A stretch of DNA of 37,577 nt from Acetobacteraceae bacterium (GTDB taxonomy: Bacteria; Pseudomonadota; Alphaproteobacteria; Acetobacterales; Acetobacteraceae), in the NCBI GenBank assembly GCA_947474705.1, contig CANJJS010000048.1:1-37577 (forward strand), read 5' to 3'. The notes below the pieces were generated by a model. It was not told the origin of the DNA and ran no database searches. It was given only the letters and a program-made list of their open reading frames with translations. Position numbers and translations under genes: made by a program. The stretch's first letter is position 1. Every line of letters starts with the position of its first letter. Below are positions 1-29,631 of the stretch, piece after piece.

Positions 1-1565
1 GTGACGACACCGCCAGCCAGGACATCGCTGGCCCCGGGGCTCAGCGCGACCTGAAAGGTCTCGTCGGCTTCGATCAGCCGGTCGCCCGCGACCTGGACGG
101 TGATGTATTTGGTGGCGGTCTCGCCAATCCCGAACGTGATCGTGCCGTGCGGCAACACACCGCCAACGAAATCGGCCGCGTTGGCCGGCGAAGCGCCTGT
201 GCCCGAAACCTGCCAGTTCACCGACGCGACCCGGTCGACATCGCCTTCCCGGTAGACGGCGTATTTGAATGCCACCGATCCGGTGTCGGGCTCGAACTGA
301 TAATCGCTCAGGGCATTCATCCGGATCACCGACTTGGCGTCGTCGTTGACGATCAGGCCTTCGACGGGAGCGGTCCCGATCTGAATGTCGCTGGCCGAAG
401 TGGTGAGCGCGACCTGAAACGCCTCGTTATTCTCGATCAGCCGGTCGCCCGCGGCCTTGAAGGTGACGGTTTTATGGGTCTCGCCGATGCCGAAGGTGAG
501 GCTGCCGGACGGCAGCACGCCGCCAACAAAATCGGCGCCGTCAACCGGCGTGGCGTCGTTCACATCCGTGGCGATCCCCGAGACCTTCCAGTTCACGGAC
601 GCGACCCGGTCGATATCGCCGGAGCGGACAACGTCGTAGGTGAACGTGACCGACCCGGTATCGCCCTCCCATTGAAACTGGTCATGGGCGTAAAGCGACA
701 CCACCGCCTTGGCGTCGTCGTGGACGATCAGGCCGGTGGCGACGCCGCTTACAATGGTGGCGTCGCTGGCGGAGGTGGTCAGCGCGACCTGAAAGGTCTC
801 GTCCGCTTCGATCTCCCGGTCGCCCGCGACCAGAACCGTGATGGTCTTGACGGTCTCGCCCGCCGCGAAAGAGACGGTGCCATGCGGCAACACACCACCC
901 GCGAAATCGGCGGCATCGGCTGGCGCGGCGCCGGTGCCAGAGACAGCCCAATCGACGGTCCCGGCGCGGCTGGCATCGCCCTCGCGGACGACGTCGTAAC
1001 GGAACGCCACCGCGCCGACATCGCCTTCCCACAGGAACGGGTCGCGGGCATGGATGGAGATCAGCGCCTTGGCGTCGTCGTTGACAATCGTGCCGGTGAC
1101 GGAGTCTGAGCCGATATGCACGTCGGCCGCGGAGGAGGTCAGCACGACGCTGAAGGTTTCATTGGTCTCCAGCAGGTGGTCGCCCGCGACCTGGACCGTG
1201 ATGGTCTTCATCGTCTCGCCGGCCGCGAACGCGACCGTGCCGAATGGCAACACTCCACCCACGAAATCTGCGCCGTTGGCCGCCGCCGCGCCGGTTCCCG
1301 CGACATGCCAGGTGGCGGACGCGGTGCGGCTGAGATCGCCGGAGCGGAAGACGGTGAACGTCATCGGCGTCGCGCCGCTCTGACCCTCTGGCCGCGGGCC
1401 GCTGAGGGTGCCGATCGACAGCACCGAAAACCCGCCCTGGAAATCCGTGCCGGGCGGCGCCACGAGGCCCGCCGGCGCCGCGCCCGCGGCGGGATCGGCC
1501 CCCGTCATATCATCCATTTCGAGAGCGGAGAATTTGTCGCGTTTTTGCGTGTTCGCGCGGATCAT
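1..1565 (-). CDS. Calx-beta repeat protein, N-terminal part (runs off window)
   Basis: The minus strand is open from the ATG at 1565 to the window edge (about 521 codons seen, C terminus missing). After a roughly 45-residue N terminus there are four tandem repeats of about 115 residues. Each carries the Calx-beta pattern: an ADFxGGVLPxGTxxFxxGET strand pair, a VAGDxxxExxETFxVxL strand and a closing VNDDAK or VHDDAK. Calx-beta domains bind calcium and are common in large surface or RTX-type secreted proteins. No signal peptide is visible at the start (MIRANTQKRDKF), so export by a type I system through an unseen C-terminal signal is a possibility, not something shown here. An AGGGAAG ribosome site lies about 8 bases before the ATG. 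The leader upstream is a duplicate of the one before the small exported gene at 1989-2225, implying co-regulation. Confidence 0.85.
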   Translation of the reverse strand, partial: MIRANTQKRDKFSALEMDDMTGADPAAGAAPAGLVAPPGTDFQGGFSVLSIGTLSGPRPEGQSGATPMTFTVFRSGDLSRTASATWHVAGTGAAAANGADFVGGVLPFGTVAFAAGETMKTITVQVAGDHLLETNETFSVVLTSSAADVHIGSDSVTGTIVNDDAKALISIHARDPFLWEGDVGAVAFRYDVVREGDASRAGTVDWAVSGTGAAPADAADFAGGVLPHGTVSFAAGETVKTITVLVAGDREIEADETFQVALTTSASDATIVSGVATGLIVHDDAKAVVSLYAHDQFQWEGDTGSVTFTYDVVRSGDIDRVASVNWKVSGIATDVNDATPVDGADFVGGVLPSGSLTFGIGETHKTVTFKAAGDRLIENNEAFQVALTTSASDIQIGTAPVEGLIVNDDAKSVIRMNALSDYQFEPDTGSVAFKYAVYREGDVDRVASVNWQVSGTGASPANAADFVGGVLPHGTITFGIGETATKYITVQVAGDRLIEADETFQVALSPGASDVLAGGVV

Positions 1566-1710
1566 GACGGGCTTCCCTGTGACAAGATGGAGCGGACTGT
1601 TTCCGCCCTCGACACCGTCAACATGACCCCCGAATGTTTCTGGATTATCCCGCGAAACACCCAATCGTGTTTCAATTGTCGCGGGCACGCGCGACAGACG
1701 CGACAATTCC
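1566..1710 (-). promoter_or_regulatory. Leader copy A, duplicated upstream region of the Calx-beta gene
   Basis: This stretch matches 2226-2370 base for base at a constant offset of 660. The core (about 1588-1710) is roughly 90% identical with no gaps, and similarity continues more weakly to the start codon. On the minus strand it holds, from far to near: a perfect inverted repeat AATTGTCGCG / CGCGACAATT (1674-1683 and 1699-1708, 15-base spacer), TTGAAA just after it, then GATAAT at 1649-1644, which ends 78 bases before the ATG. TTGAAA to GATAAT is 20 bases, too long for a standard housekeeping promoter, so the promoter assignment is tentative. The heptamer CGCGACA occurs twice directly and once inverted. 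Confidence 0.65.
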
Positions 1711-1873
1711 TGTCCCACGCCGCGCGGACGCGCCGTTCGCGCCGGACCGGTCCATGACCCGGCTTCCGGCGCGTCCTTGCCGCGCGAGATGGTCCCGACA
1801 AGACCCCGCCGTCCGGACCGACGGCTTTCTCCCGCCGGGACGTCACCCCGCCCGCCGCCGGGTCGCGCGAACG

Positions 1874-1920
1874 GAAAACGCCGCCGGTCTCCCATCCCCA
1901 AAGGACGGACACCGGCGGCG
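1874..1920 (-). terminator. Rho-independent terminator after the small exported gene
   Basis: A perfect 10-bp stem (1879-1888 with 1911-1920, CGCCGCCGGT / ACCGGCGGCG) encloses a 22-base loop and is followed on the minus strand by TTTT at 1878-1875. It lies 70 bases past the stop of the 1989-2225 gene, so it probably ends that transcript before leader A begins. The loop is long and the T run short, so strength is uncertain. Confidence 0.6.
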
Positions 1921-1988
1921 TGACATCGCATTGTGAGACAATGACCGGCGCGGCCCCCGCGGGCCCGGCGCCGGCACAAACACCCGGA

Positions 1989-2225
1989 TCAGCGCGGCAG
2001 GGGCATTTCGACCCCGATCACCCGCGCGCCCAGTCCCGGCCCTGGGCGCGCGCGATCGGCGGTCTCGGAAATCTTGACGCCGTTTTGAGTCAAAGCGTTT
2101 TCCGTCAGGGCGTTTTCCGTCAGGGCGTTGATGCCCAAACCGTTCTCCGTCAAAAATGCCGAAGCGGGCTGCGCCACGGCAAGCGTCAGGGTCAGAGCGG
2201 CGGCGGACAGAAAAAAGCGGGACAT
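1989..2225 (-). CDS. Small exported pentapeptide-repeat protein (78 aa), unknown function
   Basis: I do not recognise this gene. The start at 2225 is preceded by AAGGAA at a good distance and opens a clear Sec signal peptide (MSRFF, a hydrophobic run rich in Ala and Leu, then AQPASA as the likely cleavage site after residue 23). The mature part of about 55 residues begins with an imperfect repeat of the unit ALTEN: FLTEN, then NALTENALTENALTQNG. In the DNA this is a 15-base tandem repeat near 2095-2130. A basic, Pro/Gly-rich tail ends in EMPLPR. The same frame is open upstream to 2411, but the signal peptide and ribosome site fix the start at 2225. It shares its leader with the Calx-beta gene and has its own terminator, so it is probably a monocistronic exported peptide. 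Confidence 0.7.
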   Translation of the reverse strand: MSRFFLSAAALTLTLAVAQPASAFLTENGLGINALTENALTENALTQNGVKISETADRARPGPGLGARVIGVEMPLPR

Positions 2226-2370
2226 GACGTGGTTCCTTGTTGAACTGAAGGGCGGACCGTTTCCGCCCTCGACACGCACAACATGCCCCCCGAATGTTTC
2301 TGGATTATCCCGCGAAACCCCAAATCGTGTTTCAATTGTCGCGCGCCCACGCGACAGACGCGACAATTCC
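2226..2370 (-). promoter_or_regulatory. Leader copy B, duplicated upstream region of the small exported gene
   Basis: This is the partner of 1566-1710. It keeps the inverted repeat AATTGTCGCG / CGCGACAATT (2334-2343 and 2359-2368), the TTGAAA beside it and GATAAT at 2309-2304, at the same 78-base distance from the ATG as in copy A. Sequence around the ribosome site is also similar (AAGGAA here, GGGAAG in copy A). Differences between the copies fall mostly in the spacer of the inverted repeat and between GATAAT and the ribosome site. The aminotransferase gene starts divergently at 2512, so some of this region may also serve that gene. Confidence 0.65.
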
Positions 2371-2511
2371 CCGGTTTGGCCCCCCGGGGCGGCCATCGCC
2401 CGCGGGTCCAAGAGCGAACCAACGGCCCCGCATCGCCCGCGACGCCATCCGGTGTTAAGCCTGCCACCTCACACCGCGCCGCGACGGCGCGCGACAGCGG
2501 AGAGACAACGC

Positions 2512-3666
2512 ATGACAACGACCGGGGTAACCGACTTCGACATCGCCACGCTGCGGGCCCGCCGCACCAACAAATGGCACAAATTCCCCGCCGGCGTCCT
2601 CCCGGCCTGGGTTGCCGACATGGACTTCGGCGTCGCCCCGCCCATCGCCGCCGCGATGACCCGCCTGACCCAAAACCAGGAATACGGCTACGCCGCGCGC
2701 GAGGGCGTGCTGGCCGAAGCCTTCTCCCGCCGCATGGAACGCCGCTTCGGCTGGCGCACCGACCCCGCCGACGTCGTCGGCATCGGCGATCTGGTGCAGG
2801 CCAGCTTCTCCTCCGTCATGGCGTTCAGCGAGCCCGGCGACGCGATCCTGCTGCAACTCCCCTCCTACCCGCCCTTCATGCGCGCCATCGAGGACACCGG
2901 CCGCCGCCTGACCCCCAACCCGATGCGCGACGACGGCACGCGCTGGACACTCGACCTCGACGTCGCCCCCGATCCCCGCCTGCGCATGATGATCTTCTGC
3001 CACCCGCAAAACCCCACCGGACGCGCCTATGACCGCGCGGAACTGGAAGCAGTGGCCGCCTTCGCGATGCGCCACGACCTGATCGTGGTCTCCGACGAAA
3101 TCCACGCCGACATCGTCTATCCCGGCAACACGCATATCCCCCTGGCGTCGCTGAGCCCGGAGATCGCCGCGCGCACGATCACCATCACCTCCGCGACCAA
3201 AAGCTTCAATATTCCGGCCCTGCGTTGCGCTGTCATGCATTTTGGCGCCCCCGCCCTGAAGCAACACTTCGAAAAGCGCATTCCCTCCCGCCTTCTGGGC
3301 TCGCCCGCCGTGACCGGCGTCGACGCCACCGTCGCGGGCTGGGACGACGGTCAACCCTGGCTGGACGAAATCATGGCCCAGCTACAGACCAACCGCGACT
3401 GGCTCGCGGCCACGATCGCGGCCGAGCTGCCAGGCGTGACGTTCCGGGTGCCGGAAGCGACCTACCTCGCCTGGCTGGATTGCCGGGCGCTGAATCTTCC
3501 GGTCTCCGCCGGTCAGTTCTTTCTGGACAAGGCCAAGGTCGGACTGAATTTCGGCGAGACATTCGGGGCGGACTACGCCGGGTTCGCGCGGCTGAATTTC
3601 GCGACACCGGCGCCGATCCTGAAGGAAATCGTCGGGCGCATGGCGGACGCCGTGCGAAAGCGCTGA
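2512..3666 (+). CDS. PatB/MalY-type PLP aminotransferase (putative cystathionine beta-lyase)
   Basis: This is a 384-aa fold-type I PLP enzyme. Visible family features are an N-terminal KWHKFP...LPAWVADMDF segment typical of MalY/PatB C-S lyases, NPTGR, SDEIHADI with the Asp that contacts the PLP nitrogen, and SATKSFNIPAL with the Schiff-base Lys. The family cleaves C-S bonds of cystathionine, cysteine or related thioethers and is cytosolic. The start at 2512 follows GGAGAG by about 8 bases and fits the family N terminus; the open frame reaches back to 2128, but that part overlaps leader B and is not protein-like. The gene is followed after 76 bases by a CmcJ-type oxidase on the same strand. 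Exact substrate is not deducible; an aminotransferase role is the main alternative. Confidence 0.88.
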   Translation: MTTTGVTDFDIATLRARRTNKWHKFPAGVLPAWVADMDFGVAPPIAAAMTRLTQNQEYGYAAREGVLAEAFSRRMERRFGWRTDPADVVGIGDLVQASFSSVMAFSEPGDAILLQLPSYPPFMRAIEDTGRRLTPNPMRDDGTRWTLDLDVAPDPRLRMMIFCHPQNPTGRAYDRAELEAVAAFAMRHDLIVVSDEIHADIVYPGNTHIPLASLSPEIAARTITITSATKSFNIPALRCAVMHFGAPALKQHFEKRIPSRLLGSPAVTGVDATVAGWDDGQPWLDEIMAQLQTNRDWLAATIAAELPGVTFRVPEATYLAWLDCRALNLPVSAGQFFLDKAKVGLNFGETFGADYAGFARLNFATPAPILKEIVGRMADAVRKR

Positions 3667-23898: not shown

Positions 23899-24573
23899 TC
23901 ACACCGCCAGCCGATACCCCCCCGCCTCCGTCACCAGCAAACACGCATTCGCCGGGTCCGCCTCCATCTTCCGCCGCAACCGGTAAATATGCGTCTCCAG
24001 CGTGTGCGTCGTGACAGCCGGGTTATACCCCCAGACCTCCCGCAGCAGTTCCAGCCGCGGCACCGCTCGCGTGCCCATCCGATGCAGGAACGCCAGGATC
24101 GCGGTTTCCTTTTCCGTCAACCGGATCCGCCGGTCCGCCGCCTCGTGCCGCAGCGCCTTTTCGCCGGAGTCGAATTCGTATGGCCCGATCGCGAACCGCA
24201 CCGGCGGCGGGTCGATGGCATGGGCGTCCAGCATCTCCCGCAGCAATCCCATCAATACGCCCAACCGGAACGGTTTCGCGATCGCCGCGGTCGCGTCGCC
24301 AGGATCGGGACGGCCGTTAAGAAGAATGACCGGGACAGCGAACCCATGCTCGCGCAACCAGTCGCGCACCGCGTGACCGTCCCCGTCCGGCAGCGCGGCC
24401 TCCATGATGACGGCGGCGGCGTCGAACGCTTCGTTGGCGAAACACGCTTCCACGTCCTGACGCGACGTCGCCTCGACCACCGAGAAAGCGCCATCGCGAG
24501 TCAGTTGCTCGCGCAGCGTCTCCCGCATCGCCGCGTCGCTGTCCACGATCAGGACCGCCCCCGAACCCGGCAT
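23899..24573 (-). CDS. OmpR/PhoB-type response regulator with degenerate receiver
   Basis: This 224-aa protein has a receiver domain (residues 6-115) and a winged-helix DNA-binding domain (about 125-224, with RLTEKETAILAFL, LLREVWGYNPAVTTHTLETH and IYRLRRKM). The receiver lacks key residues: the phospho-acceptor position in IMEAALPDGDG is E58 instead of Asp, the second acidic residue is S12 (VDSD), and the switch Thr is N86 (VILLNG). The conserved Lys (K100, AIAKPF) remains. Glu at this position can mimic phosphorylation, so DNA binding may be constitutive or controlled otherwise; that is inference. No sensor kinase is adjacent. The start at 24573 has GGAGGG about 10 bases upstream. It is divergent from ribA. 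Confidence 0.88.
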   Translation of the reverse strand: MPGSGAVLIVDSDAAMRETLREQLTRDGAFSVVEATSRQDVEACFANEAFDAAAVIMEAALPDGDGHAVRDWLREHGFAVPVILLNGRPDPGDATAAIAKPFRLGVLMGLLREMLDAHAIDPPPVRFAIGPYEFDSGEKALRHEAADRRIRLTEKETAILAFLHRMGTRAVPRLELLREVWGYNPAVTTHTLETHIYRLRRKMEADPANACLLVTEAGGYRLAV

Positions 24574-26393: not shown

Positions 26394-27704
26394 ATGAGCA
26401 GGGTCCATGTCATCGGTGCCGGTCTCGCCGGTCTGTCCGCCGCCATCCAGGCGAGCGGCGCCGGGCGGGACGTGACGGTTTACGAAGCCACCGCCGCGGG
26501 CGGCGGCCGATGCCGGTCGTACCACGACCCGGAACTGGATATCCGCCTCGACAACGGCAATCACATGCTGCTGTCGGGCAATAAATCCGCCTTCGCTTAT
26601 ATTGCCGCGATCGGAGCCCAGGACCGGATCGTGGGGCCGAGGAAGCCGGTTTTTCCGTTTTACGATATCAAAAGCGGACGGGAATGGACGCTGCGTCCCA
26701 GCCGGGGACGGATTCCCTGGTGGCTGCTTTACGCGGACCGCCGGGTCCCCAAGACCACGGCGGGCGAGCATTTGGTCCTCCGCACGATCGGCCGCGAATG
26801 GGACGACACCGTCGTCACCGAGACGATGCGCCACACCTCGCTGTACTGGTTGTTCCTGGAACCCTTCTCGATCGCCGCGCTGAACACCCGCCCGCATGAA
26901 GCGTTGGCCTGCCTGTTCGGCGCCGTGATGCGGGAGACCATGTTGAAGGGTGGCAAGGCCTGCCTGCCGCGGATGGCGCGGGACGGTCTGTCCGACGCGT
27001 TGGTCGACCCGGCCATCGAGACGCTGGAGGAACGAGGCGCGGAAGTTCTGTTCAATCACCGGATCACCGGCCTGAAGTTTGAGAACGAGCGTGTCGTGGG
27101 ACTCGAATCCGCCGAGGGTCCGATTGCTTTGGACGACGGCGATTCGGTCATTCTCGCGGTTCCCCCCTGGATCGCCGGGGATCTCGTGCCGGATCTGGCG
27201 GTGCCGGATGCATTCGAATCGATCGTGAACATCCATTTCAAGATCCGTTTGGACCCGGAGGACGACGCGGCCGAAGCCGGTTTCGTCGGACTGGTGAACG
27301 GCCTCGCCGAATGGATCTTCATCAAGGAAGACCATATTTCCATCACCGTCAGCGCCGCGAACAAGGTCGTGGAGCGGCCCGCCGACGATCTGGCGGTGCA
27401 GGCGTGGCGGAACGTGGTCAAAGCCTTCGACCTGGAAGGGCCGGACGCCGAAATTCCGCCCTTTCGCGTCATCAAGGAAAAGCGCGCGACCATCGTCGCC
27501 AATGTGAAACAGGAAGAACTGCGTCCCCCCGCCGAAACCCGTTTCGCCAATTTGGTGCTGGCGGGCGACTGGACCGATACGCATCTGCCCGCGACCATCG
27601 AGGGCGCGATCCGGTCCGGCGTGACCGCCGCGAAGCTGGTGTTGAATCCTCCCAAACCGTCGCGGAAGCGGCGGCGCCGGAAGAAAATGTCCGATGACGA
27701 CTGA
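26394..27704 (+). CDS. hpnE: Hydroxysqualene dehydroxylase (squalene-associated FAD oxidoreductase)
   Basis: This is a 436-aa FAD amine-oxidase-fold enzyme. The N terminus RVHVIGAGLAGLSAAIQ (G8-x-G10-xx-G13) binds FAD, followed by VYEATAAGGGRCRSY; a C-terminal LVLAGDWTDTHLPATIEGAI is the second FAD contact and the HpnE-like ending. HpnE reduces hydroxysqualene to squalene after HpnD and HpnC. The tail is a Lys/Arg cluster (KRRRRKKMSDDD). Its last 11 bases overlap the squalene-hopene cyclase start, so squalene is made and cyclised from one transcript. hpnC and hpnD are not in the window. The start at 26394 is chosen for the Rossmann motif spacing. Confidence 0.92.
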   Translation: MSRVHVIGAGLAGLSAAIQASGAGRDVTVYEATAAGGGRCRSYHDPELDIRLDNGNHMLLSGNKSAFAYIAAIGAQDRIVGPRKPVFPFYDIKSGREWTLRPSRGRIPWWLLYADRRVPKTTAGEHLVLRTIGREWDDTVVTETMRHTSLYWLFLEPFSIAALNTRPHEALACLFGAVMRETMLKGGKACLPRMARDGLSDALVDPAIETLEERGAEVLFNHRITGLKFENERVVGLESAEGPIALDDGDSVILAVPPWIAGDLVPDLAVPDAFESIVNIHFKIRLDPEDDAAEAGFVGLVNGLAEWIFIKEDHISITVSAANKVVERPADDLAVQAWRNVVKAFDLEGPDAEIPPFRVIKEKRATIVANVKQEELRPPAETRFANLVLAGDWTDTHLPATIEGAIRSGVTAAKLVLNPPKPSRKRRRRKKMSDDD

Positions 27705-29631
27705 AACCGCTGTCGCGGACGTGGCGCCGGACGGACTGGACGAGACCATCGCGGACGCGGCCGATGCCCTGACCCGGCGGCGCCATGGCGACGGGCATTG
27801 GGTGTTCGAACTGGAGGCCGATGCCACCATTCCCGCCGAATACGTGTTGCTGGAACATTTTCTCGACCGTATCGATGCGCCGTTGCAGGCGAAAATCGGG
27901 GTTTATCTGCGCGCCACACAGGGCGCGCATGGCGGCTGGCCGCTGTTTCACGACGGGGCCTTCGATATTTCGGCGAGCGTGAAGGCCTATTTCGCGTTGA
28001 AGGCGATCGGCGACGATCCCGGGGCGCCGCATATGCGCCGTGCTCGGGAAGCGATCCTGGCGGCGGGCGGGGCCGAGCGCGCCAATGTCTTCACTCGCGC
28101 GCAATTGGCGTTGTTCGGTCAGGTGCCATGGCGGGCCGTGCCCGTCATGCCGGTGGAAATCATGCTGCTGCCGCGCTGGTTTCCTTTCCATCTGTCGAAA
28201 GTGTCGTATTGGTCGCGGACCGTGGTCGTGCCGCTCCTGGTGCTGATGACCAAACGCCCGATCGCCCGCAATCCGCGCGGCGTGCACATCCCGGAACTTT
28301 TCCGCACCCCGCCGGCGGACATTCGCGACTGGATCCGGGGTCAGTACCGGTCCTCCTGGGGAAAATTCTTCCGCCGGGTCGACCAGGTCCTGCGCGCCGC
28401 GACGCCGCTGTTCCCCGCCTTCGGCCAGCGCCGCGCGATTGAAAAGGCCGTGGCCTTCGTGACCGAGCGTCTGAACGGCGACGACGGTCTCGGCGGCATT
28501 TATCCGGCGATCGCCAACAGCGTCATGATGTTCGATACGCTTGGCTTTGCGCCTGACCATCCCGCCGCCGCGATCGCCTGGAAAGCTGTCCGCAAGCTGC
28601 TGGTGGAAACCGAGGACCGCGCTTATTGCCAGCCCTGCCTGTCGCCGGTGTGGGACACCGGACTCGCCGGACACGCGATGATGGAAGCCGGGTTCGGCGT
28701 GGACGAGTCCTGCCGGTGGTTGTTGGAGAAACAAATTCTCGACGTCGATGGCGACTGGACCGTGCGCCGGCCCGGTCTGCGGCCCGGCGGCTGGGCGTTT
28801 CAATACGAAAATCCGCATTACCCCGACGTCGACGACACCGCCGTCGTGGGCATGTTGCTGGATCGTGCCGGAGACCCCGCCTACACCGAATCGATCGCCC
28901 GCGCGCGCGAGTGGATTATCGGCATGCAGTCCAAAGGCGGCGGTGCCCTCGACGGCGGCTGGGGCGCTTTCGAACCAGAGAATATTCATCTTCACCTGAA
29001 CCATATCCCCTTCGCGGATCACGGCGCCCTGCTCGATCCACCGACCAGCGACGTCACCGCGCGCTGCGTGTCGTTTCTGGCGCAGATCGGCATGGGCGCG
29101 GACGATCTCGTCATGGTCCGCGCATTGGCGTTCCTCCGCCGCGAGCAGGAAACGGACGGAAGCTGGTTCGGCCGTTGGGGCACGAATTATATTTACGGCA
29201 CCTGGTCGGTCCTGTGTGCCCTGAACGCCGCCGGACTTGACCACGACGATCCGGCGATCCGCCGTGGCGCGGAATGGTTGCTCTCCGTGCAACGCGACGA
29301 CGGCGGCTGGGGCGAGGACGAGGAAACCTACGCCAACGCCCCCCCCGGCCATTACCGCTCCTCCACCCCGTCCCAAACCGCCTGGGCTCTCCTGGGTCTC
29401 ATGGCCGCGGGCGAAACCGGTCACTCCGCCGTCGCGCGCGGGGTCGCTTATTTGACCCGCACCCGCCGCGCCGATGGCGAATGGAGCGAAGAACCCTACA
29501 CCGCGGTCGGATTTCCGCGCGTGTTCTACCTCCGCTATCACGGTTACCGCCTGTACTTTCCGCTGATGGCGCTCGCCCGTTATCGCACGTTGCGAGACGC
29601 CAACACGAAACGGGTCCAACACGGATTCTAA
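27694..29631 (+). CDS. shc: Squalene-hopene cyclase
   Basis: This 645-aa membrane-associated enzyme cyclises squalene to hopene/diplopterol, the hopanoid core. The catalytic DVDD motif is at residues 378-381 (YPDVDDTAVVG). QW repeats are visible, e.g. QSKGGGALDGGWGAF, QETDGSWFGRWGTNYIYGTW and QRDDGGWGEDEETY, and the length fits the family. Translation overlaps hpnE by 11 bases. Downstream genes are not hopanoid-related (PrpF family after 16 bases), so the hopanoid unit ends here although transcription may run on. Confidence 0.97.
   Translation: MTTETAVADVAPDGLDETIADAADALTRRRHGDGHWVFELEADATIPAEYVLLEHFLDRIDAPLQAKIGVYLRATQGAHGGWPLFHDGAFDISASVKAYFALKAIGDDPGAPHMRRAREAILAAGGAERANVFTRAQLALFGQVPWRAVPVMPVEIMLLPRWFPFHLSKVSYWSRTVVVPLLVLMTKRPIARNPRGVHIPELFRTPPADIRDWIRGQYRSSWGKFFRRVDQVLRAATPLFPAFGQRRAIEKAVAFVTERLNGDDGLGGIYPAIANSVMMFDTLGFAPDHPAAAIAWKAVRKLLVETEDRAYCQPCLSPVWDTGLAGHAMMEAGFGVDESCRWLLEKQILDVDGDWTVRRPGLRPGGWAFQYENPHYPDVDDTAVVGMLLDRAGDPAYTESIARAREWIIGMQSKGGGALDGGWGAFEPENIHLHLNHIPFADHGALLDPPTSDVTARCVSFLAQIGMGADDLVMVRALAFLRREQETDGSWFGRWGTNYIYGTWSVLCALNAAGLDHDDPAIRRGAEWLLSVQRDDGGWGEDEETYANAPPGHYRSSTPSQTAWALLGLMAAGETGHSAVARGVAYLTRTRRADGEWSEEPYTAVGFPRVFYLRYHGYRLYFPLMALARYRTLRDANTKRVQHGF

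Follow-up and report, generated by a model that had tools for sequence, protein, structure and literature searches.

Described systems and the present locus

Activators of the OmpR/PhoB type are expected to bind direct repeats, to have a proximal pair of half-sites that stands in for the -35 box, and to be joined to a self-controlled kinase gene. The half-site period across this family is near 11 bp. The promoter element described here appears from its sequence to belong to a direct-repeat regulon of this kind, with a receiver plus winged-helix regulator, direct-repeat half-sites and a site at the -35 position. PhoB-type promoters, with their Pho box, are alike in having an OmpR-family regulator and direct repeats, in using a site that replaces the -35 box with the -10 about ten bases below, and in spacing the proximal pair at 11 bp. 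The differences lie in the half-site, which here is GCGACA, and in a second pair spaced 9 bp and located 22 bp further up. The candidate regulator also scores far short of the PhoB equivalog cut-off, with 152.7 bits against 296.2.

The TorS–TorR and ArcB–ArcA phosphorelays offer a second comparison. Their kinase is tripartite, built of HisKA, ATPase, receiver and Hpt domains, and it is paired with an OmpR-type regulator, as in the system considered here. In contrast to those systems, the sensor part here is of the PAS/GAF kind, the targets are exported proteins, and scores fall below the NCBIfam cut-offs (158.4 against 275 for the regulator with TorR; 348.9 and 352.1 against 676.5 for the G233 and G388 kinases with TorS). 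Among the literature matches listed, no title describes this combination of promoter element and phosphorelay. A leader found twice in one Acetobacteraceae contig is, very probably, the activator-dependent promoter of a dedicated, self-regulated phosphorelay in which an OmpR-type regulator would bind the repeats.

The duplicated leader

The window is the whole stretch of 37,577 nucleotides that was analysed. Two minus-strand genes near its start carry the duplicated leader, and an earlier note on this DNA had taken them for a Calx-beta repeat protein and a tiny exported repeat peptide. Both identities were borne out. Gene 1 has four Calx-beta stretches and continues on contig C75, whose end overlaps it with identical residues (41/41). 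The gene 2 product is 78 residues long with a signal-peptide-like N terminus, and neither Pfam nor NCBIfam gave a match for the peptide at E ≤ 1. The Calx-beta proteins are probably secreted, judging from the absence of a signal peptide together with known relatives. The features of the two genes and their leaders are as follows.

3–1565, minus strand: gene 1, Calx-beta repeat protein; no signal peptide seen; truncated by the contig end and continued in C75
1610–1613, minus strand: predicted transcription start of gene 1 (element position 69 is base 1613; 48-nt leader), from 25 aligned elements
1620–1625, minus strand: predicted -10 hexamer CATGTT of gene 1, from the aligned elements
1635–1682, minus strand: putative four-half-site promoter element of gene 1 (GCGACA 1677–1682, GAAACA 1668–1673, GGGATA 1646–1651, GAAACA 1635–1640)
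1691–1705, plus strand: opposed half-site pair GCGACAGACGCGACA, upstream of the gene 1 element
1989–2225 including the stop codon, minus strand: gene 2, small exported repeat peptide of 78 aa with NALTE repeats
2270–2273 (base 2273), minus strand: predicted transcription start of gene 2, from the aligned elements
2280–2285, minus strand: predicted -10 hexamer CATGTT of gene 2, from the aligned elements
2295–2342, minus strand: putative four-half-site promoter element of gene 2 (GCGACA 2337–2342, GAAACA 2328–2333, GGGATA 2306–2311, GAAACA 2295–2300)
2351–2365, plus strand: opposed half-site pair GCGACAGACGCGACA, upstream of the gene 2 element

Elsewhere in the window, positions 23902–24573 encode a further OmpR-type response regulator whose recognition helix differs. 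At 26394–29628 a squalene-hopene cyclase gene lies beside an amine-oxidase-type gene, which we take to be the arrangement of hopanoid clusters.

The geometry that the earlier note gave for the leaders holds. The 660-base offset runs in register with both ATGs (1563–1565 and 2223–2225, minus strand), and the leaders are 87% identical over 147 bp by BLAST. The gap-free core, which had been put at about 122 bases and near 90% identity, measures 119 nt at 92%. Coding similarity is at background beyond about three codons, as is similarity upstream of 1710/2370. An inverted repeat (1674–1708 and 2334–2368) and the hexamer GATAAT (1644–1649 and 2304–2309) lie at equal distances from both ATGs, as claimed.

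A DNA search of the host genome with the whole leader found no long match beyond the two window copies, and a plain DNA search of 33 genus genomes gave, outside the window, nothing but short partial matches. Rfam returned no structured-RNA match for window positions 1400–2600 at E up to 1. The partial matches in the host genome sit ahead of other Calx-beta genes, and they pointed to the half-sites.

The window leaders are about 90% identical between the half-sites too, and the host genome has a second duplicated leader pair on contig C177 (83% over 102 bp). Both observations would fit a single leader having been duplicated recently, whether through gene conversion or through tandem duplication. 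That such a duplication occurred without any wider meaning is very improbable, as it leaves unexplained 12 other elements of the host genome (E ≤ 1e-6) and those of its relatives. Alignment of elements from the host genome and its relatives also shows that half-sites are conserved while the spacers diverge. Duplication is refuted as the full account and still explains the local 660-bp copy. Under the preferred reading as a regulated promoter, the window promoter would have been duplicated, leaving one copy for each of two neighbouring genes.

From palindrome to recurring element

The earlier note had also named the inverted repeat as something to look for across the genome. It is present at both leaders, but its exact form was found only at the two window sites in the host genome and in 0 of 298 other family genomes examined. 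The exact palindrome was ruled out as a regulon motif because the host genome has just the two window sites. It is formed jointly by the opening half-site of the sense array and the opposed GCGACA-N3-GCGACA pair (GCGACAGACGCGACA), and by its sequence it is a local side effect of two arrays that face each other. The hexamer GATAAT was likewise rejected as a -10; it overlaps half-site 3, and the -10-like columns read CATGTT in the window, starting 24 bases further on.

The feature common to the partial leader matches is the direct repeat GCGACA-N3-GCGACA. Exact copies of GCGACANACGCGACA number 13 in the 5.48-Mb host genome, where the reversed control has 0; allowing up to one mismatch gives 25 sites against 1. 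All but one of the exact sites are intergenic (12 of 13), and the thirteenth, on C91, is within a weakly scored frame. The 12 one-mismatch tandem sites divide into five that are intergenic and seven inside called genes; start codons and gene limits throughout come from a simple gene caller and not from an annotation.

The full element has four GCGACA-like half-sites starting at positions 0, 9, 31 and 42. Their spacing is fixed, with the interval between half-sites 2 and 3 one base shorter in 2 of 25 elements. The period of the proximal pair is 11 bp and that of the distal pair 9 bp, not the usual 11, with 22 bp between pairs. Mean matches to GCGACA for half-sites 1 to 4 are 5.55, 5.55, 4.40 and 5.26 of 6 over 42 distinct elements, a set that includes the 23 from which the score was built.

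Promoter signature

Downstream of the half-sites the aligned elements keep a second set of conserved columns, which lie beyond the reach of model R1, as that model ends at position 48. The alignment holds 25 elements (15 from the host genome and 10 from three relatives), and its column counts are not fully independent, as they include the near-duplicate host pairs C48a/b and C177a/b. Columns 57–58 read C-A, with A at 58 in 22/25 elements; T occupies position 62 in 17/25 and A position 69 in 16/25, followed by CG at 71–72 (19/25 and 18/25). Columns 57–62 look like a -10 hexamer, with position 69 as the predicted transcription start. Judged from the letters, the direct-repeat site occupies the -35 position at a fixed distance from this -10.

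Position 69 coincides exactly with the called ATG of the kinase gene in the host genome, G029 and G017, so leaderless kinase messages are predicted. Of the 12 host elements in the sense direction, eight end 67–78 bp ahead of a called start codon.

Where the element occurs and which genes follow

The element was found in three other species of the host genus and in seven other genera. A search of 33 genus genomes with R1 gave 14 host sites at E ≤ 1e-6, 13 of them members of the training set. Outside the host genome (G000), sites at that threshold came only from G029, G017 and G020, and the best of the rest stood at 0.007. The longer model R2 (78 positions) was run on 397 family genomes and reached E ≤ 1e-4 in 16 genomes from 8 of 102 genera; its filters were strict, and some weak matches were lost. 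Four of 20 family stretches (L219, L220, L224 and L229) have no element by the ungapped score, and the model matches there are probably gapped. A control set of 1,348,146 bases in 80 loci showed elements (score ≥ 20) only at the known G165 and G020 places.

Calx-beta genes are one class behind the element in the host genome. By tblastn there are ten Calx-beta loci, and seven have an upstream site (C48, C71, C2, C59, C36, C177 and, weakly, C11); C71 and C2 hold the tandem pair only. No upstream site was seen at the C128, C21 and C28 loci, the C128 gene beginning 165 bp from a contig end. Those 165 bp (L077:1–165, G000:C128) hold by eye a transposase-like tail of 41 residues directly upstream of the element-less gene, with no Pfam or NCBIfam match. 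It is a guess that an insertion separates this gene from the orphan C177b element, which reads into a contig end.

Small exported peptides form another class. The full element stands ahead of three different exported repeat-peptide genes of the host genome (window, C50 and C68), and it also precedes small exported-peptide genes in G327, G201 (weak) and G388 and four paralogues in G060. The G201 peptide has NALT-N repeats in common with window gene 2, and in G327 and G201 an ADYC-domain gene follows the peptide gene. Searches of the repeat peptides against Pfam and NCBIfam gave nothing above a family cut-off, with not every peptide run against both libraries. Further genes behind the element encode a globin, a DUF4189 protein, an RTX serralysin-like protein and hybrid kinases.

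The wider regulon that the earlier note had raised as a possibility can be recognised in this recurrence ahead of Calx-beta and exported-peptide genes, in the host genome and in relatives. Its regulatory cassette before genes for exported proteins gains from the spaced half-site element, the -10-like hexamer and the same recurrence, which together point to a promoter. Both proposals are supported, now with a candidate regulator.

Several copies per genome could also be expected of a transposable-element end or a dispersed non-coding repeat. That explanation is extremely unlikely. The elements keep their half-sites alone and have no conserved continuous end sequence, and the whole leader has no long match in the host genome beyond the window copies. 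The earlier note had asked about copies placed at random, inside genes or facing no start codon; 12 of 15 host elements face a called start codon, 21–138 bp off. The element also precedes a multi-PAS histidine kinase gene in matching placement in three species. Other placements do occur: no sense-direction start codon lies within reach of the C72 element, the nearest for the C91 element is about 410 bp away, and in G399 and G324 there is overlap between the element and called genes.

Two further arrangements were seen beside elements. At L156:3403–4692 and L148:3652–4962, from two species, the element, though oppositely oriented, lies 87–90 bp ahead of a gene that is CoA-transferase-like by eye. 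Tandem CCATTGGGCGCC-type repeats precede the kinase element by about 60 bp at L041:4140–4240 (G000:C27).

Candidate regulator and kinase

Six genomes (G017, G020, G060, G165, G233 and G410) have an OmpR-type regulator gene adjoining both the element and a hybrid kinase gene. In all six the kinase has HisKA, ATPase, receiver and Hpt domains; its sensor part has PAS in G017 (with GAF), G060, G233 and G410, and GAF in G020 and G165. A single hydrophobic stretch lies close to the N terminus of the G017 kinase (mean 2.04 at residue 16). The host kinase (L185:5849–11014, G000:C27) shows the same domains across two frames with an in-frame stop between them, and the G029 copy has frame breaks too, its intact first frame showing the PAS/GAF part only. 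In both, the breaks may reflect sequencing error or real decay. At L151:1–3061 (G017:C635), the element and the response regulator gene have as neighbours a SapC-family gene and another gene in which an LEPRVLL motif was recognised by eye.

The regulator of the host genome is encoded at C14:60945–61655. The G017 regulator, with Pfam Response_reg and Trans_reg_C domains, is 76% identical to it. Orthologues of at least 70% identity occur in exactly G000, G017, G020 and G029 among the 33 genus genomes (next best 61%), and the same four hold strong elements. Across the 397 family genomes, 18 score 424–470 bits for the regulator and the next scores 341. The element was found in 16 of these genomes and the orthologue in 18, with 15 having both (hypergeometric P 2e-23, ignoring kinship). 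Three genomes of genus g37 (G068, G202 and G302) have the regulator, yet the strict-filter scan gave no element for them at 1e-4, and the other three g37 genomes have one weak element each.

The recognition helix of the regulator is FDRAIDNRIMRLRRK. The readings, which leave out L164, L167, L169, L170, L178, L263 and L264 among others where the pattern was unmatched, gave IDNR[IV]M in 12/12 element genomes outside g37 plus G017, G020 and G029. The six g37 genomes have IDNRIL, and those of the next-scoring regulators that were read have IDLR or IDMR. The IDNR part alone is not diagnostic, since a distant regulator, L171 (50% identical), reads IDNRVS.

A paralogous PAS-kinase/OmpR-type pair in the same genus (G021, G025 and the host C7 regulator) provides a close comparison, its regulator being 54–61% identical. 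Kinase and regulator genes are likewise divergent in G021 and G025, and the fetched part of the G021 kinase has PAS, GAF, HisKA and ATPase domains. The paralogous pair differs in its helix, IDLR or VDLR instead of IDNR, and neither G021 nor G025 has an element better than E 0.09.

A different regulator could work the element, for instance as a repressor or through an extracytoplasmic sigma factor promoter, with the kinase and regulator pair merely one target. The host and G029 regulator genes have no element alongside, and G201 has an element (weak, of the GAAACA type) with no regulator at E 1e-60, as this alternative would allow. We consider it improbable given the adjacency of kinase, regulator and element in six genomes, the presence of a regulator orthologue in 15 of 16 element genomes, and the recognition helix common to element genomes. 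As for a repressor, direct repeats that end nine bases above the -10 would fit an activator better. The element is probably worked by its own pair of sensor and regulator proteins.

Proposed mechanism

The model for this pair starts from what was observed here: the element, its spacing, its gene contexts and its co-occurrence with the regulator. A hybrid histidine kinase with PAS and/or GAF, HisKA, ATPase, receiver and Hpt domains would respond to a signal and pass phosphate to the OmpR-type response regulator. The regulator would then bind as tandem subunits to the direct GCGACA half-sites. Of these, the pair at about -38 and -27 would replace the -35 box, the pair at about -69 and -60 would add occupancy, and RNA polymerase would use the -10 hexamer that follows nine bases after the last half-site. 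We infer the binding, activation rather than repression, the flow of phosphate and the signal. Predicted targets are the secreted Calx-beta proteins and the small exported repeat peptides. The kinase gene would be a further target, so that the loop would feed back.

Meaning for the family

The on-switch is newly recognised, and the type of bacterial control to which it belongs is well known. The promoter set should be useful for learning how the recognition helix of OmpR-type regulators (IDNRIM vs IDLRIT) fixes the half-site. The most interesting content of the system is its uncharacterised exported peptides. It is a tentative and rather doubtful possibility that a dedicated Acetobacteraceae phosphorelay commands previously unnamed tiny exported repeat peptides (NG, MHNAA, NALTE and GIRTDNGSLQNPN types) together with Calx-beta/RTX secreted proteins, the peptides being exported alongside as a structural or signalling component of a single surface system. 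Unnamed exported repeat peptides of several kinds share one promoter element and one candidate regulator with the Calx-beta proteins, and their function may therefore be approachable through a single deletion.
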